A DNA stretch of 64,000 nucleotides from Moritella sp. PE36 (GTDB lineage: Bacteria > Pseudomonadota > Gammaproteobacteria > Enterobacterales > Moritellaceae). The stretch covers positions 62,001 through 126,000 of the forward strand of contig NZ_ABCQ01000005.1 in NCBI RefSeq assembly GCF_000170855.1, in the 5' to 3' direction. Every line of letters begins with the position of its first letter. The first letter of the stretch is position 1. The position numbers were made by a program, and so were the translations under genes. Of this stretch, positions 4,162 to 6,473 are shown piece by piece. Under the pieces are notes generated by a model. The model saw only the letters and a program-made list of their open reading frames with translations. It was not told the DNA's origin and did no database searches.

Positions 4162-4204
4162 ATGCCAGCCAGAATTGTTATAATATAACAATTCTGGCTG
4201 GCAT
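4162..4204. promoter_or_regulatory. 43-bp palindrome containing a Zur-like box
   Basis: Two perfect 19-base arms (4162-4180 and 4186-4204) surround a five-base centre. The middle, TGTTATAATATAACA at 4176-4190, equals the core of the gammaproteobacterial Zur operator as I know it. The outer arms (GCCAGCC / GGCTGGC) make the palindrome long enough to form a stable RNA hairpin after yciT, so it may also help end yciT transcription, though no T run follows. Confidence 0.7.
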
Positions 4205-4219
4205 CCGTCACGACTGTTA

Positions 4220-4234
4220 TGTTATATTATAACA
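4220..4234. promoter_or_regulatory. Second Zur-like box, close to the transporter start
   Basis: TGTTATATTATAACA is the exact reverse complement of the core in the preceding palindrome (4176-4190) and ends 28 bases before the ATG of the transporter. Two perfect copies of a 15-base operator core in front of one gene make zinc-dependent repression by a Zur protein the simplest reading. An extra TGTTAT half site overlaps at 4215-4220. Confidence 0.7.
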
Positions 4235-4262
4235 CCTGTTTTACTGACCTCGTGTTTATACC

Positions 4263-6473
4263 ATGTCTTTACTTTTATTTCTGAGCATTGCGACGCTCTT
4301 CCTTGGCCCTTATTTATGTAAATTTGTCGGCTCTAAATCTGATCGTTTTGCTTTCTTTGATAGTTTTATCTTTGTTTCCATTGGCGGGTTGGTGTTATTC
4401 CATATCTTGCCTGAGTTACTGGAAACTGGGGGTATTGCCGTTCTTGGGCTCATGTTAGTCGGCTTATTCGGCCCTGGTATGGTGGAAAAAGTATTCCATA
4501 AAGTCGCCAAACAAACCCATTCTGTCACCTTGATATTAGGCGTGTTCGGTCTCGTCTTACACGCGCTCACCGATGGTGGTGCGCTGGCTATTGAAGATGA
4601 TCAAACGGCTTATTTATTAGCAATCGGAGTGGTACTGCATCGTTTTCCCGTTGGCCTTACCGTATGGTGGCTGTTACGTCCGCATTATGGCAGAGCCTTA
4701 CCGCTAGCGGTATTAACGGCGATGTCAGTGGCCACTGTTGCTGGTACTTGGCTAGGTGGAGAACTGATTGCACATGATAGTGGTAACTGGTTGATCTGGT
4801 TCCAAGCGTTAGTGATGGGTTCGATTTTACATGTGGTATTTCACCAGCCGTATAAACAAGATCACGGGAAAGAAACGCAACGTGATAAATTTGCCGCTGG
4901 TACCGGGAGTTTAATTGGCGCTGCTTGTTTGCTGGCTGTGTTACTGCCACATTGGCTAGGTTATGCGCCACATGATCACGACTCGGAAGACGTGATAGTT
5001 GTATCACAAACGACGATATCACAAATGGCGGTTTCATCTGAGTTACACGTTGATGACCATGCAGGACATGATGACCATTTGGGACACGATGACCATGTGG
5101 AACACGATGACCATGTGGAACACGATGACCATGTGGAACACGATGACCATGTGGAACACGATGACCATGCAGGACAGGATAACCATGTAGGACATGATGA
5201 CCACGCAGGACATGATGACCATGTGGGACATGATGACCACGCAGGACATGATGACCATGTGGGACATGATAACCATGTAGGACATGATGACCACGCAGGA
5301 CATGATGACCATGTGGGACATGATGACCATGCAGGACATGATGACCATGCGGGACACGATGACCATGAGGGACACGATGACCATGCGGGACATGATGACC
5401 TTGCAGGACAAGCACACGGTAGTGAAACGGCAGAGACCTTACTACGCTTCGTGAGTTTGTCGTTGCATGCTGCACCGGCGTTATTAGTTGCTTACATCCT
5501 GACGTGGCTGATTAACTTTGTGAAACCAGCGTTCAACATGGTTGGTCAATTACGCAGTACAAGTTCAGTGGCTGGAGCATTGAAAGGGACCTTGATCGGG
5601 TTACCCCTACCGATTTGCATACCCGATGCCTCGGGTATGTATAAACAATTGATTAAAGCGGGTTGTGGTTCTGCATTAGCCGTTTCATTCTTGGTGGCAT
5701 CACCTGTGCTTGGGTTTGATGCATTACTTATTTCACTGCCGTTATTAGGCGTTGAATGGGTTGGTATTCGTTTAGTGATGGCGATTATTTTAGCCGTGAC
5801 GCTGGGGTTATTGATTGGGGTATTGTTTAAGAAACATGATTTAAACACCGATACGAGTGCCACACCAGAACAGCTAAAACAATCAACATCGCGCTTGAAG
5901 CATGCCTTTGAACACGGTTTTGCCCATTTAATTGATCACACCGCGCCTTGGGTGTTGTTTGGATTAATTGCCGCGGCCACATTTACCCCGACAATTGGTT
6001 GGCAGTTCTTACAGCAAGAACCTTGGTTGCAAGTGGTGCTCGCTATTATGATTGCATTACCCTTCCATTTCTGTGCCACGGGTATTACCCCAGTATTAGC
6101 GATTATGCTAATTGCAGGTGTATCACCCGGTGCAGTTGTGGCCTTCAGTCTCGTTGGACCAACACTTAACCTCGATTTGTATCGCTTCATTAAAGATAAT
6201 CAAGGTAAGCACATCGCAGTCGCGGTGGTGATGGCTATTGTGACTGTCGCCTTGTTATTAGGTCTGGGGATTATGTATTGGGTACCTGAATTGCCTAAGC
6301 CTTGGTTAACGTTAGCACCGCATTGGCAAGATGATTGGTGGCGTTATGTCAGTTTAGTAATTGTGACGGTGTTATTTGCGATTAGTATTTTACGTCGTGG
6401 TGCACGTAGCTTTATGCTGGAATTAGTACCGCATAGTTTTAGAAGTGCCAAACCACATCACCATCATCACTAG
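4263..6473 (+). CDS. ZIP-like / His-repeat / COG0701-permease fusion metal transporter
   Basis: A 736-residue membrane protein in three parts. Residues 1-235 are a hydrophobic domain with ZIP-like motifs: HALTDGGALA (as in ZIP helix 4) and AIGVVLHRFPVGLTV (as in ZIP helix 5, with the usual Glu replaced). Residues about 264-383 are 20 copies of a DDHxxH unit. Residues about 395-700 match the COG0701 permease family (ArsP, SO_0444): TLIGLPLPICIPDASG occupies the place of the family CSCG motif, and FCATGITP with GVSPGAVVAFSLVGPT matches its second signature. The C-terminus ends in five His. Two Zur-like boxes precede the gene, so zinc is the likely substrate and uptake or storage at low zinc the likely role. 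Direction of transport is not proven. No good ribosome site is visible before the ATG. Confidence 0.78.
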   Translation: MSLLLFLSIATLFLGPYLCKFVGSKSDRFAFFDSFIFVSIGGLVLFHILPELLETGGIAVLGLMLVGLFGPGMVEKVFHKVAKQTHSVTLILGVFGLVLHALTDGGALAIEDDQTAYLLAIGVVLHRFPVGLTVWWLLRPHYGRALPLAVLTAMSVATVAGTWLGGELIAHDSGNWLIWFQALVMGSILHVVFHQPYKQDHGKETQRDKFAAGTGSLIGAACLLAVLLPHWLGYAPHDHDSEDVIVVSQTTISQMAVSSELHVDDHAGHDDHLGHDDHVEHDDHVEHDDHVEHDDHVEHDDHAGQDNHVGHDDHAGHDDHVGHDDHAGHDDHVGHDNHVGHDDHAGHDDHVGHDDHAGHDDHAGHDDHEGHDDHAGHDDLAGQAHGSETAETLLRFVSLSLHAAPALLVAYILTWLINFVKPAFNMVGQLRSTSSVAGALKGTLIGLPLPICIPDASGMYKQLIKAGCGSALAVSFLVASPVLGFDALLISLPLLGVEWVGIRLVMAIILAVTLGLLIGVLFKKHDLNTDTSATPEQLKQSTSRLKHAFEHGFAHLIDHTAPWVLFGLIAAATFTPTIGWQFLQQEPWLQVVLAIMIALPFHFCATGITPVLAIMLIAGVSPGAVVAFSLVGPTLNLDLYRFIKDNQGKHIAVAVVMAIVTVALLLGLGIMYWVPELPKPWLTLAPHWQDDWWRYVSLVIVTVLFAISILRRGARSFMLELVPHSFRSAKPHHHHH
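5052..5411 (+). repeat. 20 tandem 18-bp units encoding DDHxxH
   Basis: Exactly 20 in-frame units of 18 bases, from GAT-GAC-CAT onward. Units 3-6 encode the DDHVEH version and are nearly identical at DNA level, pointing to recent expansion; later units alternate DDHAGH and DDHVGH. The final unit is DDLAGQ. Because the unit is a multiple of three, copy-number change would alter the length of the metal-binding loop without breaking the frame. Confidence 0.95.

Follow-up and report, generated by a model that had tools for sequence, protein, structure and literature searches.

What is the role of a gene that joins an importer-type and an exporter-type membrane fold in a single chain and is preceded by boxes for Zur? 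The question is raised by a gene of Moritella sp. PE36, which lies in a stretch of 64,000 nucleotides (the window; RefSeq assembly GCF_000170855.1, contig NZ_ABCQ01000005.1, positions 62,001 to 126,000) and encodes a protein with a ZIP-like N-terminal half, a linker rich in His and Asp, and a C-terminal half related to the SO_0444 family of copper/zinc efflux proteins. We favour, as a reasonably probable answer, an inner-membrane protein of zinc starvation that captures zinc in the periplasm and aids its uptake. The gene is laid out as follows, in positions of the window.

4263..6473, plus strand: fusion gene, ZIP-like half, His/Asp-rich linker and ArsP_1/SO_0444-like half, 736 amino acids
4263..4964, plus strand: N-terminal ZIP-like half, residues 1-234, with 8 predicted transmembrane (TM) helices and the N-terminus outside
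4560..4580, plus strand: TM4 motif HALTDGG, residues 100-106; its alignment partners in ZIPs are HNLPEG/HSFIDG
4638..4655, plus strand: TM5 motif HRFPVG, residues 126-131, with Val where the aligned ZIPs (HEFPEG, QNMPEG) have Glu
4965..5426, plus strand: His/Asp-rich linker, predicted periplasmic
5051..5400, plus strand: tandem array found by TRF, 18-bp unit in 19.4 copies, coding for HDDHxG-type repeats
5427..6455, plus strand: C-terminal ArsP_1/SO_0444-like half
5616..5627, plus strand: CIPD, residues 452-455, replacing CSC(G/S) of SO_0444-like proteins
6072..6083, plus strand: CATG(ITP), replacing CA(T/S)ASTP of SO_0444-like proteins

The HALTDGG, HRFPVG and CIPD motifs named in a first-pass annotation of this DNA are all present, and so is the His-rich repeat that it placed between the halves: of the 150 residues from 239 to 388, 40 are His and 40 are Asp. 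The annotation had also proposed control by Zur, and its two perfect 15-bp palindromic cores, each the reverse complement of the other, were found upstream as described.

4176-4190, no strand: Zur box core 1, TGTTATAATATAACA, over the predicted -10, starting 87 bases before the start codon
4220-4234, no strand: Zur box core 2, TGTTATATTATAACA, starting 43 bases before the start codon
4156..4184, plus strand: promoter predicted by consensus match only, TTATCA-17-TATAAT, a TG preceding the -10

The window holds two matches to the core at no more than one mismatch where 0.04 are expected, and none of 100 shuffles reached two; promoter consensus matches number 2, against 0.8 expected in shuffles. 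Since core 1 covers the predicted -10, zinc-loaded Zur should block this promoter. Judging from the sites, the gene is almost certainly under Zur control, because other Zur-type targets in the genome carry the box and because the box is conserved before orthologues. A scan of the 5.22-Mb genome gives 3 perfect copies of the core and 13 copies with at most one mismatch, where the base composition of the window predicts about 0.07 and 2.9; three pairs among these 13 sites overlap each other, and all 13 fall at 7 places, one of which is the fusion gene. The genome-wide scan that the annotation had proposed found the core at znu-type loci and at type-B L31, and the places other than the fusion gene are these.

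Operon of znuC-type ATPase, ABC-3 permease and ZnuA
Cluster with ZnuA and an ABC-3 permease (L178 1661-4496, same genome, contig C109), perfect core
DUF1007 gene followed by a NicO-family gene (L179 5691-7427, same genome, contig C76), one-mismatch core
folE2
CobW/COG0523 gene followed by DUF1826
Type-B L31

One of the two FUR-family genes in the genome is Zur (NF008646, 173.9 against a cut-off of 167). Znu, COG0523, rpmE2 and folE2 are described as Zur targets, and some bacteria also place zupT under Zur control (PMC6103462). The fusion gene shares its 15-bp palindrome, with at most one mismatch and within one genome, with members of the gammaproteobacterial Zur regulon (znuABC, COG0523, rpmE2, folE2); the regulon lists in the available part of PMC6103462 include no such fusion. 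The DUF1007-NicO pair, by its type a nickel/cobalt transporter, is apparently under zinc control. The first gene of the L178 cluster encodes 382 amino acids with a signal-peptide-like start by reading and has no Pfam match at 1e-3.

The fusion is not confined to this strain. All 11 genomes of the genus carry it (10 with an intact gene, 1 with the gene broken off at contig ends), and the named relatives with 86-96% identity are Moritella (L045-L047). Across the order, the N-half occurs in 130/394 genomes, and 83 of these, counted by open frames of at least 500 amino acids, have it fused; they are distributed over seven families, which we label f1 (genus of the window), f5, f11, f12, f15, f16 and f20. 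In 23 loci the presence of both halves was verified directly, with a weak C-half match in the three from f5. In the class sample the N-half profile matches 15/369 genomes, with one further fusion recognised by reading (G418); an eighth label, f52, is used below. G559 had been taken as fused by open-frame length and was removed from the list, as its N-half ends the frame. A box was counted when a core with at most 2 mismatches lay within 200 bp before the inferred start, with genomes carrying two loci counted once and the fragment L233 and the remote ZIP loci L236 and L237, which offer no anchor, excluded. On this basis the box precedes the fused gene in f1 (11/11 genomes), f11 (18/20), f12 (4/4), f15 (4/5) and f16 (8/9), that is, in 45/49 genomes of five families and before 45/74 fused genes examined; it precedes 1/17 stand-alone N-half genes, and 9/2140 shuffled upstreams carry it. 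In most of the box-bearing relatives a core starting 37-52 bases 5' of the start codon recurs.

For the N-terminal half, the annotation had claimed ZIP similarity over residues 1-235, and profile comparison bears this out. Pfam ZIP (PF02535) matches residues 84-193 of the full protein (E 1.1e-5, 25.3 bits) and matches residues 1-246 alone with E 1.3e-6 and 28.3 bits; both scores lie below the gathering score of 35.1 bits. In the reciprocal direction, the N-half profile reaches six open reading frames that score 94-148 bits with Pfam ZIP, indicating homology to bona fide ZIPs. In the alignment with these six, H-A-x-T-D-G stands opposite HNLPEG, HNIPEG, HSFIDG and HSLIEG, and H-R-x-P-V-G opposite forms such as HEFPEG and QNMPEG. 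The metal ligands of ZIPs, as seen in their structures, lie in an HNxxEG-type motif in TM4 and in HxxxE in TM5. This ligand set is incomplete in the N-half, which retains the H and D and the TM5 H. The N-half shares with the ZIP family (ZupT, GufA-type) the predicted 8-helix layout, the H-x-x-x-D-G of TM4 and the His of TM5, and differs in lacking the TM4 Asn and the TM5 Glu, in the Arg that follows the TM5 His, in being joined to a second transporter-like half, and in forming a group of its own that includes stand-alone members. His86, His100, Asp104, His126 and His190 are invariant in 35/35 proteins counted, and His47 is found in TM2 of 24/24 fused proteins; the acid position of TM5 is Glu in 1/11 stand-alone N-half proteins. 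Given the changed TM5 position, His47 and the invariant residues, the N-half is, by its residues, a group that resembles ZIP but has an altered metal site, and we do not file it as a member of ZIP. Structure prediction by AlphaFold2 from an alignment of only 3 near-identical rows, too shallow for a usable model, gave a mean predicted local distance difference test (pLDDT) of 40.8 and a predicted template modelling score of 0.23, and a search of PDB sequences with the N-half profile returned 0 matches. The stand-alone proteins (L159-L167, L183, L184) are 232-283 amino acids long, most with a His-rich tail; a Zur box precedes 0/11 of them, and in f7 the stand-alone gene adjoins an FAD-linked oxidase-like gene, named by reading.

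The kinship of the C-terminal half with COG0701 is borne out too: ArsP_1 (PF03773) matches residues 393-668 with E 2.7e-26 and 92.9 bits, above the gathering score of 32.3, and the C-half is homologous to the SO_0444 model NF033936 in two stretches (E 2.1e-40). Its 138.9 bits fall short of the curated cut-off of 300, which three SO_0444-like controls exceed with 428-526 bits. We compared 11 SO_0444-like proteins picked by hand, the three controls among them, with 13 fused C-halves outside f5. The former carry the motifs LCSC(G/S) and CA(T/S)ASTP, and 10/11 have a CC pair in the loop between them, against 0/13 of the fused C-halves; a MerR-type gene adjoins the SO_0444-like gene in 11/11 cases (10 by Pfam, 1 by reading). 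Among the fused C-halves, 9 have CxPDA as the first motif, one f20 protein has CVPNA, and three f11 proteins have CSPSA or CSAQA, so that the replacement of CSCG by CIPD, which the annotation had pointed out, is real but not peculiar to this gene. The second motif is retained in altered form, as CATG, and DHTAPW together with both motif cysteines (Cys66 and Cys218 of the C-half) is invariant in 13/13 aligned sequences, f5 not included. Thus the hallmarks of SO_0444, namely CSC(G/S), the CC-bearing loop and the MerR neighbour, are absent from the fusion, which is distinguished in turn by a mostly CxPDA motif, the joined ZIP-like half, the His-rich linker and a preceding Zur box. All 13 fused C-halves form one clade apart from the 11 SO_0444-like proteins (100/100, with a long stem of 2.95), in a tree from which f5 was left out; with its very remote outgroup, the clade may be sister to those 11 or nested among them. 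A UxC motif with selenocysteine occurs in some SO_0444 proteins (PMC13188914) and is probably the same CxC site; for this reason the loss of one of its cysteines likely matters. With only 4 sequences aligned, those of the window and named Moritella loci, AlphaFold2 gave the C-half a pLDDT of 35.3. The genome of the window encodes a second ArsP_1 protein of YraQ size (324 amino acids), and a search of it with the C-half found no separate SO_0444-like protein at E 1e-3. SO_0444-like paralogues are also present in f5 genomes.

Which side of the membrane the linker faces was predicted for 8 fused proteins from hydropathy and a positive-inside count. The window protein has 8 hydropathy helices in its N-half, and ahead of the linker its outer loops contain 0 Lys/Arg and its inner loops 3, 3, 2 and 4, which places the linker in the periplasm; its C-terminal tail with a His run is predicted inside. 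By hydropathy the linker is predicted periplasmic in L152 as well, which also has 8 N-half helices and outer loops free of Lys/Arg ahead of the linker, while one fewer was found in L145, L149, L150, L153, L154 and L158. An acidic segment rich in His and Asp, as in this linker, is familiar from ZnuA and other His-rich periplasmic zinc collectors; the fusion differs from these in that the segment links two membrane halves in one chain. The array changes fast, the segment from TM7 to TM9 spanning 96-245 amino acids across 10 proteins of the genus, and in one of its genomes (G010, protein L168) it is almost without repeat.

Three observations point to a protein of zinc shortage that collects zinc outside: its control by Zur, the side on which the linker is predicted to lie, and the lost hallmarks of the exporters. 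With zinc plentiful, zinc-loaded Zur on the two boxes, core 1 lying over the predicted -10, would shut the gene; with zinc scarce the protein would be made, its linker would collect zinc in the periplasm and pass it to the membrane halves, and the net movement would be inward, a direction that we infer. Expression under zinc scarcity is very probable from the sites, if a shade less so because the core itself resembles a -10. A role in zinc acquisition appears probable; that both halves move zinc inward is somewhat less likely than not. Relative to SO_0444, a His-rich linker in the periplasm would have taken over metal collection from a Cys-rich loop, assumed to be cytoplasmic, and a Zur response to zinc shortage would have replaced a MerR-type response to zinc excess. 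That helix residues are invariant speaks for both halves being active in the Zur-linked group. A bolder version, which we think rather unlikely, is a single-chain zinc scavenger in which an exporter-type permease, minus one CxC cysteine and the Cys-rich loop, now runs inward: with a His antenna in the periplasm and a ZIP-type partner added, and with Zur in control, both the regulation and the direction of this transporter lineage would have been turned round, and its halves would act as one relay. Of the annotation's proposal of a two-module uptake or scavenging machine, the ZIP similarity, the ArsP_1/SO_0444 kinship and the Zur control hold; a plain pair of pumps fits less well, given the lost TM5 Glu and the His segment that is short in some relatives.

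A number of observations weigh against the favoured reading. The acid position of TM5, Glu in ZIPs, is Val in 24/24 fused proteins, so that transport of the kind known from ZIPs may not occur in this half. Raw helix counts put the linker inside in 6/8 fused proteins, because TM7 or TM4 falls below threshold in those six; the sub-threshold segment is nevertheless present by alignment, and with such weakly hydrophobic helices the predicted side is less clear in relatives. The number of C-half helices comes out odd, with one loop of inner character placed outside. The TM7-to-TM9 segment, linker included, has 211 amino acids in the window protein, 60-68 in two f16 proteins and 96 in one Moritella; because it is short in some relatives, the long repeat array cannot be essential. 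In three aligned f5 C-halves the region of the first motif (CxPDA) is missing and CNLG is present. No box precedes the fused gene in f20 (0/7), f5 (0/17 examined of 29 fused; L156-L158 and L214-L227) or f52 (0/1), 0/25 in total, two f5 upstreams reaching 3 mismatches to the core. As the core includes TGTTATAAT or a near form, its coincidence with an extended -10 follows in part from the core sequence itself, and at up to 2 mismatches the genome holds 42 sites against 49 for the reversed control, so that weak sites alone mean nothing here. With the glutamate lost, the linker variable and some lineages without the box, a simple picture could mislead, and in some bacteria Zur activates the control of export (PMC9827704, PMC6103462).

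This last point opens the reading of the fusion as a zinc exporter or buffer, activated by Zur or made against the surge when starved cells regain zinc. Zinc export in Pseudomonas aeruginosa is positively regulated by czcR, which Zur activates (PMC9827704), and Zur activates efflux genes in Xanthomonas and Streptomyces (PMC6103462); the kin of the C-half, too, export. However, core 1 lies over the predicted -10, the position of a repressor, sites of the same type precede gene types that Zur represses elsewhere, and reading of the fused loci listed showed no MerR gene next to them, so we regard this explanation as improbable. Export could also serve import by proofreading, with zinc imported by the ZIP-like half or the linker and stray metals such as copper and cadmium expelled by the SO_0444-like half, whereby one Zur-controlled gene would raise zinc selectivity when zinc is scarce. 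The nearest characterised kin of the C-half are exporters: SO_0444 was annotated as copper/zinc efflux from fitness data, being needed under ZnSO4 or CuCl2 stress, and from its ZntR-like neighbour (PMC3219624), and a family member in Nitratiruptor is induced by Cd and Cu (PMC10092412). The set of genes with a Zur box, moreover, includes the NicO-DUF1007 pair. The NicO family includes nickel/cobalt exporters, but NicO proteins may also be importers, and the fused C-half has lost one CxC cysteine and the CC-bearing loop of the exporters; proofreading seems unlikely to us, if worth keeping in mind.

Least probable in our view is a membrane-bound zinc store or sensor, in which degenerate membrane halves merely anchor a periplasmic zinc-binding linker. 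The altered ZIP site, the changed CxC, the lack of part of the C-half in f5 and a linker that is His-rich and variable would all fit such a protein. Yet anchors would have no need of the N-half residues invariant in 35/35 proteins or of Cys66, Cys218 and DHTAPW in 13/13 C-halves, and it is the linker that shrinks in relatives.

The history of the fusion is only roughly known, as the supports in the N-half tree fall below the mark. A rapid tree built from 53 N-halves puts the fused proteins of f1, f11, f12, f15, f16 and f20 in one group (Shimodaira-Hasegawa-like approximate likelihood ratio test, SH-aLRT, 89), with f5 and unfused kin next (SH-aLRT 81), neither value reaching the program's 95 mark; the fused f52 row branches elsewhere, among long branches. 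The fewest changes on this tree are three for being fused and three for Zur, labelled by family. A hemN-like gene, named by reading, stands near the fusion in the window, in L152, in L153 (f20) and in L156 (f5), which speaks for one old locus. Reading of the neighbouring genes in the loci listed revealed no zinc gene next to the fusion, and no ZIP-like gene beside a separate C-half gene was seen by reading in the stand-alone loci listed.

Two features of the upstream DNA stand apart from these arguments.

4162..4204, no strand: perfect 43-nt palindrome centred on Zur core 1

The start that the annotation gave for its feature, 4162, is the first base of this palindrome. Its arms outside the core covary across 10 Moritella upstreams (92.9% of cells paired, against at most 39% in slid controls); 4 pairs are changed on both sides, which 12/500 shuffles also reach, and 0/500 shuffles reach the covariation score, while further pair types are not enriched. 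G010, 1/11 genomes and left out of this alignment, has neither core 1 nor the palindrome. The palindrome has an RNA fold z of -7.4 and may form an RNA hairpin behind the deoR-type gene or be kept perfect by template switching; a terminator scan found none here, and there is no Rfam match. In several f5 genomes TGGTATACT at about -40 was considered as a Zur box and not counted, being an extended -10 without palindrome.

The annotation had known of no described system of this composition, and our search agrees: no published description of the fusion was recognised among titles and abstract starts of the open-access literature, with subscription papers and regulon databases outside the search. 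Its relatives in several families hint at an as yet undescribed type of membrane protein that scavenges zinc. If this is true, zinc-starved marine gammaproteobacteria would own an acquisition route beyond ZnuABC and ZupT, built by joining an importer-type and an exporter-type fold. The contrast between SO_0444-like proteins (MerR-linked, with CSC(G/S) and a Cys-rich loop) and the fused clade (with Zur box, CxPDA and His linker) would then provide a natural test of a change in transport direction among relatives, and transferring the label 'Cu/Zn efflux' to the fused proteins would be ill-advised.

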